From a virus, in the IMG/VR virus record IMGVR_UViG_3300035698_009668, positions 1 to 26,066 of that record: 26,066 nt of DNA. One strand, given 5' to 3'. Position numbers and translations under genes: made by a program. This document shows positions 1,086 to 25,590 of this stretch, in pieces. The notes under the pieces were generated by a model, which was not told the origin of the DNA, did not search any database, and was given only the letters and a program-made list of their open reading frames with translations. Positions within the stretch are counted from its first letter, which is position 1. Every line of letters begins with the position of its first letter.

Positions 1086-1544
1086 ATGTCAAACGAGATA
1101 ACAACATTACTAACAGGAATAAACACAAGGGTCTTAGCAGTGCTAGGTTCCTCGTATTCTGAATTAGGTTATATAGTTGACGTAACTGATAACCCTTTTA
1201 AGGGAAGCTCAAAATCCTATGGAACTCTTGCTGGAGATGTATCGGAAGTTGAGACCTCTGCGGGTGTATTAGGGAGTTATACAGTGACTCAGAACTTCAC
1301 TGTTAAGGTAACAAACAAATGGGCTACATCTCAGGCTGGTGATAGTAGCAAAAGAAGTACAATGGTTGCGTTACTTGAGAAGTGTCTTCTCATTTATAAA
1401 GACCTTGTTAACAACAAAGCAGGCAGTCCAAACATCGTACTAAATGTTTTAGACGGTATGGAGACAGTCAACACGTTTCACGATGAAGAAAATGTCTGTG
1501 AAGCGACCATGTCAATTGGCATACTCTATAGGATAGCATTGTAA
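1086..1544 (+). CDS. Putative tail terminator / tail completion protein
   Basis: 152 aa, starting 4 bases after the previous stop. Size, mixed alpha/beta character and position directly before the tail tube gene match tail terminator proteins (lambda gpU-like position), which cap the tube and join it to the head. The sequence begins with an amphipathic helix (NEITTLLTGINTRVLAVL) and ends in beta-like segments (NVCEATMSIGILYRIAL). The stop overlaps the next ATG as TAATG. In the uninterrupted ancestor this overlap probably led straight into the tail tube gene, but a GIY-YIG ORF now follows. Confidence 0.55.
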   Translation: MSNEITTLLTGINTRVLAVLGSSYSELGYIVDVTDNPFKGSSKSYGTLAGDVSEVETSAGVLGSYTVTQNFTVKVTNKWATSQAGDSSKRSTMVALLEKCLLIYKDLVNNKAGSPNIVLNVLDGMETVNTFHDEENVCEATMSIGILYRIAL

Positions 1545-1849
1545 TGTTTTATGTTTATAGACATATTAGACTCGACCATGACACCCCATTTTACGTAGGT
1601 AAAGGTAAGGGTAAACGTGCTTATTCTAAATGTAGAAATAAATACTGGAAAAATATTGTAAAAAAAACTGATTATGAAGTTATATCTAAGAGAACTGGTG
1701 AAGTTTGTGGAATTTTCAAATCTCAAATAGATTGTGCTCTTTCATTATTTAGTAATAAAAAAGCTCAGTCAAAGATATCCGCTATTCTTTTAGGTAGCGA
1801 AAATAGGAAATCCTATAAAGGATTTATATTTAAGTATTTAACAAAGTAA
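1544..1849 (+). CDS. Chimeric GIY-YIG homing endonuclease remnant (middle missing)
   Basis: 101 aa. Residues 2-40 are the start of a GIY-YIG nuclease domain: FYVYRH, then TPFYVGKGKGKRA with the YVG core, then RNKYWKNIV. The domain stops there, so the segment that carries the catalytic glutamate is absent. Residues about 48-101 (SKRTGEVCGIFKSQIDCALSL ... SYKGFIFKYL) look like the C-terminal DNA-binding tail (NUMOD1-like helix-turn-helix) of such enzymes. An internal deletion has probably fused head to tail in frame, and nuclease activity is not expected. The ORF is more A/T-rich than its neighbours, as expected for a mobile gene. It lies between tail terminator and tail tube, in the same frame as the tail tube. 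Confidence 0.75.
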   Translation: MFYVYRHIRLDHDTPFYVGKGKGKRAYSKCRNKYWKNIVKKTDYEVISKRTGEVCGIFKSQIDCALSLFSNKKAQSKISAILLGSENRKSYKGFIFKYLTK

Positions 1850-1865
1850 ACAATGTTTATATAAT
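1838..1865 (+). promoter_or_regulatory. Possible promoter TTAACA-16-TATAAT before tail tube
   Basis: TTAACA at 1838-1843 and TATAAT at 1860-1865 are separated by 16 bases. The element straddles the 3' end of the GIY-YIG ORF and the gap before the tail tube frame. A transcript would begin near 1872, only about 8-10 bases before the first conserved tail tube codon, so its leader would be nearly absent. This could be a promoter brought by the insertion. A/T-rich sequence makes chance matches common. Confidence 0.4.
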
Positions 1866-1879
1866 CACGGGGGTGGATT

Positions 1880-3058
1880 ATCGGATACTCAATCAAAAAC
1901 AATATAAAAATTGCAATTAAAGAAGAAGAGACGGAAGGAACCTTTGTAGCACCAACAGCAGGATCGGATTTTATCCAAGTACTAGCTGATGGAGCATCTA
2001 TGGACCCAGCAAAAGAATTGCTTGAACGTGACCTACTAGGTGGCGGTCTTTCAAAAGCAACTCCAAGAACTGGTCTATGGAGTGTAGCTGGTACGTTAAG
2101 CGTAGAAGCAAAAGCACATGGAACAGAAGGAACAGCTCCAGAATACGGACTTTTAATGGAAGGAATTCTAGGTAACACTAGAAGTGTAACAACTAAAACA
2201 ACTGATGATTCAGAAGCGGGAACTTATTCTGACACAGTATTGTGTCTTAATGCAGTAGATGCTTCCGGATATACCGCAGGAGACATAGTCGTTGTAAAAA
2301 GATCTGCAAACTATCATATTTCTCCAATTACAAATGTTGCAACTAATGAGATTACTCTTTTAGTAGCAGACCCAGCGGGAGCTTTTGTAGATGGACTAGA
2401 TATTGCAGCCGTAACAACTTATTACCCAGCAGATGAAGATCACAAAGCTATCTCAGTATCTAGATATATTGAAGGTGCAATTCTTGAAAAATCTGTAGGT
2501 TCTAAGATGGTATCTATGGCACTGTCAGGTTTCGAAACTGGAGCAATGGCTAAGTGGGAATTTGGATTTGAAGGACTTTATCCTGATAAAGAAGTATCAG
2601 CTATAGGCTATACTCCTGATTTTGATTCAGCACTTCCTCCAATTATTCTATCAGCTTGTGTTTATCAAGATGGTGTAGCTCTTCCTGTAAACTCTTTAGG
2701 ATTTTCTATAGAAAATGAATTAGGAAAAATTACATCCACATGCCACTCCAAAGGTACTATCTCAAGTAGAGTTACTGGTAGAGGAATCACTGGAACAATT
2801 GATCCTTACAAGCAGAATGATGATATTGCACAGTGGGAAAAGTTTGAATTAGGAACTGAATATTCTATCTTTGGTTTTGCTAAAGTCCCAACAGGAGTTG
2901 ATGGCGAATATGGAGATGTTTTTGCCTTCTATATGCCTTACTGTTTATCAACAGAACTAGGTGAGGGAGATAAGGACGGAATTTTGCAAGATTCTATTAG
3001 CTTTAATGCTGGCGGTGGATCAGATCAAGCGGAAGAAATATTTATTAGTTTCATATAA
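1880..3058 (+). CDS. Major tail tube protein (no canonical start codon visible)
   Basis: The open frame from 1865 gives GYSIKNNIKIAIKEEE, then TEGTFVAPTAGSDFIQVLADG, then MDPAKELLERDL. This resembles the N-terminus of siphophage tail tube proteins (T/S-E-G-T-x-V-A-P, then A-x-M-x-P-x-K-E-L-x-E-R), which polymerise into the tube. No ATG, GTG, TTG or CTG occurs in frame before the ATG at 2000. The coordinates use an in-frame ATC at 1880, which lies 6 bases after GGGGG (1869-1873) and directly before the conserved GGA TAC TCA; this gives 392 aa. The alternative ATG at 2000 (352 aa) has GGAG five bases upstream but would remove 40 conserved residues. The product is fairly sure; the start is unresolved. 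Confidence 0.7.
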   Translation: MGYSIKNNIKIAIKEEETEGTFVAPTAGSDFIQVLADGASMDPAKELLERDLLGGGLSKATPRTGLWSVAGTLSVEAKAHGTEGTAPEYGLLMEGILGNTRSVTTKTTDDSEAGTYSDTVLCLNAVDASGYTAGDIVVVKRSANYHISPITNVATNEITLLVADPAGAFVDGLDIAAVTTYYPADEDHKAISVSRYIEGAILEKSVGSKMVSMALSGFETGAMAKWEFGFEGLYPDKEVSAIGYTPDFDSALPPIILSACVYQDGVALPVNSLGFSIENELGKITSTCHSKGTISSRVTGRGITGTIDPYKQNDDIAQWEKFELGTEYSIFGFAKVPTGVDGEYGDVFAFYMPYCLSTELGEGDKDGILQDSISFNAGGGSDQAEEIFISFI

Positions 3059-3113: not shown

Positions 3114-3665
3114 ATGGAAAAATGGAAAGATGTTTCAGGTTATGAAGGTTTATACCAAGTAAGTTCTTATGGAAGAGTTAAAAGTTTAGAGAGATTAGTT
3201 TCTCATAGGCTATGTGGTATGCAAAAAGTTTCTGAGAAGATACTAAAACAAGGTAATGCTACCGGTGGATATAAATGCTTAAATCTATCCAAAAATAATA
3301 TAAAAAAATCTATAAGTGCACATAGGCTTGTAGCTTTAACATTTATCCCCAATCCTTTAAACTTACCAGAAGTAAACCACATAGATGAAATAAAGACCAA
3401 TAACCACGTCACTAACCTGGAATGGTGCTCAAAAAAATACAATTTAAATTATAGAGACACTCAAAAAAGAATAAAAAAATCTAATTACAAAAGTATACAA
3501 GGTAAAAAACGTGGAGTGTTTTGGAAGAAAGTAGAGAAAAAATGGCGAGCAGCTATAGGTTATAAGGGTAAGGAAATACATCTTGGTTATTTTTTTGTTA
3601 AAGAAGATGCCTATAAAGCTTACTATGATAAATATTTAGAGATTTATAAAGAGAGACCTTGGTAA
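3114..3665 (+). CDS. HNH homing endonuclease (NUMOD4-HNH-AP2)
   Basis: 183 aa with full domain order. Residues 1-27 are a NUMOD4 motif (W-K-D-V-S-G-Y-E-G-L-Y-Q-V-S-S-Y-G-R-V). Residues 69-110 are an HNH_3 domain (AHRLVALTFIPNP, VNHIDEIKTNN, NLEWCS). Residues 132-175 are an AP2-like DNA-binding domain (RGVFWKK, KKWRAAI, LGYFFVKEDAYKAYY). Such enzymes cut intron-less or insertion-less alleles and spread by repair. It appears intact, unlike the GIY-YIG remnants. It lies between tail tube and chaperone genes, behind a strong hairpin. No Shine-Dalgarno precedes its ATG, suggesting low expression. The gene is markedly A-rich. Confidence 0.9.
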   Translation: MEKWKDVSGYEGLYQVSSYGRVKSLERLVSHRLCGMQKVSEKILKQGNATGGYKCLNLSKNNIKKSISAHRLVALTFIPNPLNLPEVNHIDEIKTNNHVTNLEWCSKKYNLNYRDTQKRIKKSNYKSIQGKKRGVFWKKVEKKWRAAIGYKGKEIHLGYFFVKEDAYKAYYDKYLEIYKERPW

Positions 3666-3714: not shown

Positions 3715-4143
3715 ATGCGAATTTTTAAGACTTCTGATGAGATATCTATCAAAATTGATGATGTGACTGTGATTGTATCCCCCCTAACTTATGAACATAA
3801 AGTAGAAGTGCAGGCATTTATGTTGAAAGCAGCTAAGGGAGATGCCGAAGGGATTAGTGCAGGAATGGAAGGTGCTAGACTAGCAATTAAATATGCTGTG
3901 AAAAGGGTAGACAACGTTACCCACGTAGACGGTACTCCCTATGAAGTGAAAATGGAAAACAAAGTCTTATCTGATGAAACTTTAAATGAATTATGTAACT
4001 GTGAAATAACTGATAAGTTATATAATGTTTGTTGCCAACTACTTGCAAGCATCCCTAAACAATTCATCGATCCTGTGTCTAAAAAACCGATGAAGGGGGT
4101 ATCCTTCTCAAAAAACTTAAAGAGGACGGGGAAAAAGAAATAA
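3715..4143 (+). CDS. Tail assembly chaperone, short (zero-frame) product
   Basis: 142 aa, with a strong AAAAAAGGAG ribosome binding site. Position between tail tube and tape measure, size, and a downstream overlapping frame without a start all match the gpG half of lambda-type gpG/gpGT chaperones, which coat the tape measure during tail assembly. The N-terminus is beta-like (DEISIKIDDVTVIVSPLTYE), followed by helices (KVEVQAFMLKAAK). The zero-frame end is lysine-rich (SKNLKRTGKKK) and stops at 4141. A -1 shift at 4110-4116 would give a 300-aa long form. Confidence 0.8.
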   Translation: MRIFKTSDEISIKIDDVTVIVSPLTYEHKVEVQAFMLKAAKGDAEGISAGMEGARLAIKYAVKRVDNVTHVDGTPYEVKMENKVLSDETLNELCNCEITDKLYNVCCQLLASIPKQFIDPVSKKPMKGVSFSKNLKRTGKKK

Positions 4144-4152
4144 TTCACGTCC
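4110..4152 (+). promoter_or_regulatory. Programmed -1 ribosomal frameshift site
   Basis: The heptamer A AAA AAC (4110-4116) is in the zero-frame register X XXY YYZ. After 7 bases, GGACG (4124-4128) can pair with CGTCC (4148-4152), a five-pair stem whose loop contains the zero-frame stop. A second, weaker slip candidate, GGGGAAAAAG, lies at 4128-4137. The -1 frame beyond has 166 codons and no usable start, which is the strongest reason to accept frameshifting. Confidence 0.8.
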
Positions 4153-4616
4153 GTTATCTTTCAGAATTTTGGGAATATGTAGTTTGGAAAATTATAGATA
4201 TAAGTTCCTTAAGCTTACATGATATAATTACCCTTAAGGCAAACTTTGAATATGTATATGTTTTAAGGTGTGACCACTTAGTAGAAGAACACGTTGATAA
4301 GGGTTACACTAGAGAAGTTGCAGAGAAGACAGTCCGTTTAGAACACGGTTGTAGTAAGATTTCAGAGACACCGATTTATAAGATTGATAATATTGATTTC
4401 TACACATGTCCATGTAACTTCCGTAATAATAAATTCAATTTTCTATTAACTGCTTCTGCAGCATATGAAAAAGGAATTTTACCCTACCCAGGAAGCTTAT
4501 CCGAGCAACCTGCCAAAGCGATGGAAGCTATTAACTTGCTGAGTTCTTTAAAACTTCAATTTCAGCAAGAAGAAAGTAAAAAACAAAAAGCTAACCAAAA
4601 AAGAATAACAGGATAA
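4116..4616 (+). CDS. Tail assembly chaperone, -1 frame extension (gpT-like)
   Basis: An open frame of about 166 residues in the -1 register follows the chaperone. It begins LKEDGEKEIIHVRYLSEFW and ends in a charged, Gln/Lys-rich tail (QFQQEESKKQKANQKRITG). The frame has no ATG, GTG or TTG in its first part and a stop just upstream at 4080-4082, so it is made only as a fusion to the zero-frame protein, total 300 aa. The extension would bind tail tube subunits, as gpT does in lambda. It contains a Cys cluster (FYTCPCNF) that might bind metal. It ends 29 bases before the tape measure. Confidence 0.8.
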   Translation, partial: LKEDGEKEIIHVRYLSEFWEYVVWKIIDISSLSLHDIITLKANFEYVYVLRCDHLVEEHVDKGYTREVAEKTVRLEHGCSKISETPIYKIDNIDFYTCPCNFRNNKFNFLLTASAAYEKGILPYPGSLSEQPAKAMEAINLLSSLKLQFQQEESKKQKANQKRITG

Positions 4617-14983: not shown

Positions 14984-15134
14984 AACCCTCTAAAAATATT
15001 TCTTTATTCTTTTCGAAGTTAGCGTCGCTTCTAACTTCTTGAAGGGCGGTAAAGGCTTCCTCTTTGGAAGTCATACCGTTCTCGACTGCCACTATTAAAG
15101 AATCTAACATAATTAATATTTCTGAATCTGTCAT
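14967..15134 (-). CDS. 55-aa acidic protein coupled to the sigma-like gene
   Basis: Frame on the minus strand starting at 15134 and ending TAA at 14967-14969. It begins MTDSEILIMLDSLIVAVENG and continues with MTSKEEAFTALQEVRSDANF. It has GGAGG seven to eight bases before the ATG, and its ATGA overlaps the stop of the sigma-like gene. Such tight coupling suggests roughly equal production of the two proteins. The product is acidic and all-helical. A partner or anti-sigma role is possible, from context only. It meets the holin-candidate gene tail to tail. Confidence 0.65.
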   Translation of the reverse strand: MTDSEILIMLDSLIVAVENGMTSKEEAFTALQEVRSDANFEKNKEIFLEGSTLLY

Positions 15135-15727
15135 AAATGTTCCTCCATATAAAAGCTCAACATCTCTCGTAGTCTGCGCTTCTTTGCACCGACGCCTGCA
15201 GCGGTGATGCTAAATTTTCTAGATATCTCAGCGTCTTTCGAACCCATTAAATATTCTTGAAGCAAGACATCCATAGAAAGCTTTCTGCCCTGCCTATTCT
15301 TTTTAGTGTTAGCAAAGAATCTCTCACAAGCCTGCTTAAAGTCATACCTGACCTCGTTGTCATGTGTCTCATCTTTACTATCCTCTAGGAAGTCACCCAC
15401 GAGAGTATTACTGTCATGTTTAAGAGGGGTGCTAAGAGAGTTAGCCTTATAAAATATCATCTCTTTACCACGCTTACTAAAAACACTTTCAAAGACTTTG
15501 TACTTAATACACTGCATGACATAGGTGCTGAACTTAGCACTAGACCTCTTTCTATCAAACTTCTCAATAGTCTTCTGGTGAGCAAAGGCTAGGTAAACAT
15601 TTTGTATGGTATCTTCGACAGAAAATAGAGGGTCATTGAATTTATTCTTACATAGCTTATAGACTATCTTAACCACGTCTTGGTGGTTGTGCTTACAGAA
15701 CTCGTCTAGTGTTGAAACAGTCTTCAT
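15131..15727 (-). CDS. Phage-encoded sigma-70-like RNA polymerase factor
   Basis: 198 aa, minus strand, with GGAAGGAT before the ATG. Residues about 32-81 look like sigma region 2 (FSVEDTIQNVYLAFAHQKTI, FDRKRSSAKFSTYVMQCIKY), matching the helix that binds core polymerase and the -10 element. Residues about 148-190 look like a region 4 helix-turn-helix (LLQEYLMGSKDAEISRKFSI, then AAGVGAKKRRLREML). Length is that of small ECF-type or phage late factors. It probably directs host polymerase to late genes. It is transcribed leftward, toward and against the end of the virion operon. Confidence 0.7.
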   Translation of the reverse strand: MKTVSTLDEFCKHNHQDVVKIVYKLCKNKFNDPLFSVEDTIQNVYLAFAHQKTIEKFDRKRSSAKFSTYVMQCIKYKVFESVFSKRGKEMIFYKANSLSTPLKHDSNTLVGDFLEDSKDETHDNEVRYDFKQACERFFANTKKNRQGRKLSMDVLLQEYLMGSKDAEISRKFSITAAGVGAKKRRLREMLSFYMEEHL

Positions 15728-25240: not shown

Positions 25241-25442
25241 ATACGATTTAAATACTTTGGAAGCGGTATATTTAGCTACCGCTCCTAAGCAGATATCTCA
25301 TTACACGGGAGAACACTACCTTGACCATGCGGATACGCCTGTGTATTCCCTCGACCCAGTACAAGCTGGTCTATTAGAGGGTGACCAGCTATATGACTTT
25401 TTAATTATATCCCTTAACTTAGAGGAAATAGATGGTAGCTAA
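25227..25442 (+). CDS. 71-aa protein after portal, unknown
   Basis: A TTG start at 25227 lies within the portal 3' end, with AGGAAG just before it. It begins MKKHKYDLNTLEAVYLATAP and is acidic (LDPVQAGLLEGDQLYDFLII). Small proteins here often connect portal and head genes, but no family was recognised. Its end overlaps the GIY-YIG remnant start by 11 bases. Confidence 0.55.
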   Translation: MKKHKYDLNTLEAVYLATAPKQISHYTGEHYLDHADTPVYSLDPVQAGLLEGDQLYDFLIISLNLEEIDGS

Positions 25443-25590
25443 ATATTGTATATATAGGCATTCGAAACCAGATGGTACTCCTTTTTATATAGGTAAGGGG
25501 ACTATCAAACGTCCTTATTCAAAACATCATAGAAATAAGCACTGGCACAATATAGTTATCTTAAAGAAGGTTAGAAATGAGCTTTCCTAA
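25432..25590 (+). pseudogene. GIY-YIG endonuclease fragment (N-terminus only)
   Basis: 52 aa with a good AGAGGAAA ribosome binding site. It contains CIYRH, TPFYIGKGTIKRPYS and RNKHWHNIV, the first third of a GIY-YIG domain, and ends after VILKKVRNELS. The catalytic glutamate region and any DNA-binding part are missing. It stops at the same alignment point as the GIY part of the ORF at 1544. It overlaps the genes on both sides, so it may now be kept only as a translational link. Nuclease activity is not expected. Confidence 0.75.

Follow-up and report, generated by a model that had tools for sequence, protein, structure and literature searches.

A phage tail tube gene predicted to initiate at the near-cognate codon AUC behind an exceptionally strong Shine-Dalgarno sequence

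The putative tail tube gene of a viral contig (IMG/VR record IMGVR_UViG_3300035698_009668, the whole analysed stretch of which, 26,066 nucleotides, is referred to as the window) raises the question of where its translation begins. Its open frame (Table 1) starts with TCA CGG GGG TGG ATT ATC GGA TAC TCA ATC, and the first canonical start in this frame is ATG 2000, as ATG, GTG, TTG and CTG are all absent before it. This absence had been pointed out in an earlier sequence-only reading and is confirmed on the sequence; with 45 start-less codons, the tail tube is an outlier among the window's genes, the others having 0-26 and mostly 0-8 (21 larger genes checked). Initiation at an AUC codon (position 1880), one of the explanations offered in that reading, would be exceptional, since to our knowledge prokaryotes very rarely use AUC as a start, and hardly any curated gene does.

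Table 1. Features of the tail tube locus and its surroundings (positions in the window).
Feature	Position	Strand	Remarks
Tail terminator-like gene, upstream neighbour	1086-1544	+	152 aa; TAA 1542-1544; 72% aa identity to L001 1025-1483
GIY-YIG-type ORF	1544-1849	+	101 aa; PHROG 30235, E 1.8e-8, residues 2-45 only
Inserted segment	1545-1864	+	about 320 bp; ends ambiguous, TAA at both edges
Possible weak hairpin, Shine-Dalgarno sequence in loop	1861-1881	+	no better than shuffled sequence
Tail tube open frame	1865-3058	+	opens after TAA 1862-1864
Shine-Dalgarno sequence GGGGGTG	1869-1875	+	7 consecutive pairs with 16S rRNA 3' end (E. coli-type assumed), -13.3 kcal/mol
ATT, alternative near-cognate start, less likely	1877-1879	+	spacing 3 nt shorter
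ATC, proposed tail tube start codon	1880-1882	+	homologues have ATG here
Tail tube gene	1880-3058	+	392 aa counted from ATC; PF18906, E 6.9e-14, 52.5 bits
HNH homing endonuclease with NUMOD4	3114-3665	+	follows the tail tube, before the chaperone gene; not in L001

The tail tube protein belongs to the family Phage_tube_2 (PF18906), its score lying well above the Pfam cut-off of 27 bits, while its AlphaFold model is of low confidence (mean pLDDT 46.6) and was left out of the argument. A relative, L001 (IMG/VR contig 3300022871_001122, fetched also as L010), comes from a separate metagenome and encodes a tail tube sharing 90% amino acid identity with that of the window; in DNA, L001 is 86% identical. 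Phage, plasmid and genome-contig collections were also searched and yielded no near relative. Between positions 1883 and 1999, ten nucleotides differ from L001, nine of them at third positions, and nine of the ten altered codons still encode the same amino acid (P about 1e-5 if evolution were neutral); this pattern indicates that the codons ahead of the first canonical start are translated and selected at the protein level. The same stretch matches the beginning of Phage_tube_2, so that the conserved N-terminus that the sequence-only reading had proposed from 1883 onwards is borne out by both lines of evidence. A shorter protein starting at ATG 2000, the earliest canonical start and one retained in L001, is accordingly highly improbable, as it would discard codons conserved as protein, lower the Pfam score from 52.5 to 38.0 bits with the loss of profile positions 2-22, and lack an N-terminus that is present in all homologues aligned, none of which begins at the position of 2000.

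L001 also contains neither the GIY-YIG ORF nor the insert that lies upstream of the tail tube in the window. Its tail terminator ends with ACATTATAA and is directly followed by CCACGGGGGTGGATTATCGGATATTC; CCACGGGGGTGGATTATCGGATAT, which stands immediately after the terminator stop, has ATT-ATC as in the window, and ATG is absent. As this other contig has the identical ATT ATC without an insert, the start-less state is independent of the insert and is not a sequencing error at 1880, an explanation that the sequence-only reading had considered and that is rejected here. The comparison with insertion-free relatives that it had suggested thus speaks against the insert as the cause.

The same observation bears on whether ribosomal bypassing or RNA splicing could leave out the GIY-YIG segment, bringing ATG 1544 next to GGA 1883 and restoring the expected start ATG GGA TAC. 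The intervening distance is 336 bases and in frame, which is a one-in-three coincidence; it results from an arbitrary cut between ATG and GGA, whereas the terminator stop is separated from ATC by 335 nt in the window and by 15 nt in L001, so the insert measures about 320 bp, is no multiple of three and leaves the leader unbroken. The TAATG at 1542-1546, formerly taken for a displaced tail tube start, contains the ATG 1544 that opens the insert's own ORF. Skipping should leave a continuous gene with its start wherever the segment is missing, yet L001 lacks the segment, lacks that ATG and is equally start-less. No Rfam intron or other RNA family reached gathering level in the window, and nothing credible was detected within 1400-2100. 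Bypassing or splicing is therefore rejected, as a reading with scarcely any probability left to it.

The GIY-YIG ORF shares 61% identity over 43 amino acids with a sequence from Enterococcus phage VRE9. Only its N-terminal 43-45 residues match GIY-YIG families and relatives, below the Pfam cut-off, and alignment with a relative of 201 aa, encoded by Curvibacter phage P26059A, shows gaps of >90 columns with the remainder mostly missing; instead of an intact GIY-YIG homing endonuclease, it looks like a truncated, decaying remnant. A 9-nt direct repeat, ATGTTTATA, is present at 1551-1559 and 1853-1861 near both edges of the insert and could be a trace of insertion. Another short GIY-YIG-like ORF of 52 aa (25432-25590, + strand) is a probable remnant as well.

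More distant relatives were gathered by patterns taken from conserved portions of the tail tube protein. In seven of them (L060, L061, L062, L063, L064, L067 and L069) the insert is likewise missing and the tail tube starts with ATG, 3-15 nt past the terminator, and the more remote L070-L072 have an ATG start too. In an N-terminal alignment of seven sequences, the initiator methionine of five ATG-starting homologues aligns with ATC 1880 without gaps: ATC-GYSIKNN of the window is matched by MGYSVKSN in L060, and L067 (MADMVKNN) and L069, the latter near-identical to L060, start at the matching position. A near-cognate codon thus sits exactly where homologues carry ATG, which supports the first of the three options of the sequence-only reading, AUC 1880 behind the ribosome binding site GGGGGUGG, while its other two, skipping and a shorter protein, do not stand. 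On the parsimonious reading, a single ATG-to-ATC change would have occurred in an ancestor shared by L001 and the window phage. The ATC start is seen in these two phages only, the conservation of the codon itself being statistically not strong, and a leader with ATG or ATA replacing ATC was found in no IMG/VR contig.

The leader offers what a weak start codon may require. Its Shine-Dalgarno sequence, at -13.3 kcal/mol as calculated with an E. coli-type 16S 3' end, from which the anti-Shine-Dalgarno of the host may differ, is the strongest among 28 genes of the window, the next reaching -9.3; this value is attained by 0.1% of random 20-mers from the window and is equalled in L001. Genes of this phage usually have a spacing of 5-7 nt; that to ATC is at the top of this range and equals the spacing of several ATG genes, so ATC combines the strong pairing with a spacing in range. 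The leader (1865-1882) is identical to that of L001 at 17 of 18 sites (P 0.0008 to 0.009 against neutral sites), where fourfold (neutral) sites are 58% identical in the terminator and 68% in the tail tube. Initiation at the adjacent AUU 1877, which would add one isoleucine (fMet-I-GYS), is favoured by the retention of ATT in L001 and by the natural AUU start of E. coli infC, for which PMC9845219 lists references, but is unlikely, as the ATG of homologues falls one codon later and the spacing to the Shine-Dalgarno sequence, 3 nt shorter, lies at the edge of the phage's range. A regulatory hairpin over the Shine-Dalgarno sequence was rejected, its folding (z -0.09 and -1.19 against shuffles) being not above chance. 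No phage-encoded tRNA able to read AUC as a start was found.

Taken together, the tail tube is predicted, with a probability of about 0.78, to be initiated at the near-cognate AUC 1880 under the guidance of the Shine-Dalgarno sequence. In this scheme, ribosomes guided to the leader would begin at AUC and produce fMet-GYSIKNN from a codon that replaced ATG in the common ancestor of the two phages, and the very strong, well-spaced GGGGGUG would offset the weakness of AUC. In a later, separate event, which as far as seen is confined to the window's lineage, a GIY-YIG homing-endonuclease gene would have entered between the terminator and the leader, leaving the latter intact. As the insert parts the leader from all upstream genes, initiation must be local.

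The tail terminator-like gene owes its name to its position beside the tail tube, which suggests this function; Pfam and PHROG searches with it returned no match. It shares one frame with the tail tube, at a distance of 3-15 nt, in six lineages (L001, L060-L064, L067) and not in L070, and some lineages have two stops in the gap; the shared frame is probably due to chance or common descent. It could also favour an N-terminus produced by read-through of the UAA just upstream, and GTG 1873 in another frame might allow a +1 frameshift, but both are very unlikely: in the window, owing to the insert, any sizeable ORF further upstream is separated from the tail tube by two UAAs in frame, two stops lie within the gap in L063, L064 and L067, the shared frame fails in L070, and GTG 1873 lies inside the Shine-Dalgarno sequence and has none of its own. 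Downstream, a pair of tail assembly chaperone genes (3715-4143 and 4083-4616, + strand) is joined by a -1 frameshift, the slippery A AAA AAC at 4110-4116 being conserved in L001; such pairs are ordinary for siphophages, and the second frame is likewise without a start of its own. An ORF at 15131-15727 (- strand) has a weak match to sigma-70 region 2 (E 2.8e-4, below the Pfam cut-off) and is possibly a phage sigma factor.

Beyond initiation itself, it may be speculated that AUC has been retained as a control point balanced by the exceptionally strong Shine-Dalgarno sequence, tying the synthesis of a multi-copy virion protein to start-codon discrimination, for instance through IF3, or to coupling with the stop 15 nt upstream; this is conceivable but rather unlikely. 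Gene finders restricted to ATG, GTG and TTG would cut such proteins short, in this case to 352 aa, or set their starts wrongly, and an essential structural gene keeping AUC in two diverged phages offers a natural test of the extent to which AUG can be replaced by a strong Shine-Dalgarno sequence. The case also shows that an unrelated nearby insertion can mislead.

Among known systems, the tail tube resembles other members of Phage_tube_2 (PF18906) in its domain and in the order of terminator, tube, chaperone pair with -1 frameshift and tape measure, and differs from them in that its relatives begin with ATG. Phage T4 gene 60 bypassing and self-splicing introns likewise have a segment with a homing-endonuclease-like ORF adjoining a phage gene; skipping is unneeded here, the start being missing even without the insert. 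The AUU of E. coli infC and the AUC described here both differ from AUG in the third base only and otherwise stand in a normal Shine-Dalgarno context, whereas the present codon is AUC, the gene encodes a phage tail tube, the Shine-Dalgarno sequence is exceptionally strong, and there is no known link to IF3 autoregulation. A survey of prokaryotes counted 61,358 ancestral AUG starts, of which 363 changed to GUG, 113 to UUG, 2 to CUG and 1 to AUU, with no AUC reported (PMC5622118); by this measure the AUC proposed here is unusual. As in the GUG and UUG genes of that survey, where a weak start is associated with a stronger Shine-Dalgarno sequence (PMC5622118), a non-AUG start is here accompanied by a stronger, conserved one. 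The AUC case is thus unusual and common to two phages, yet of a known kind, namely non-AUG initiation.
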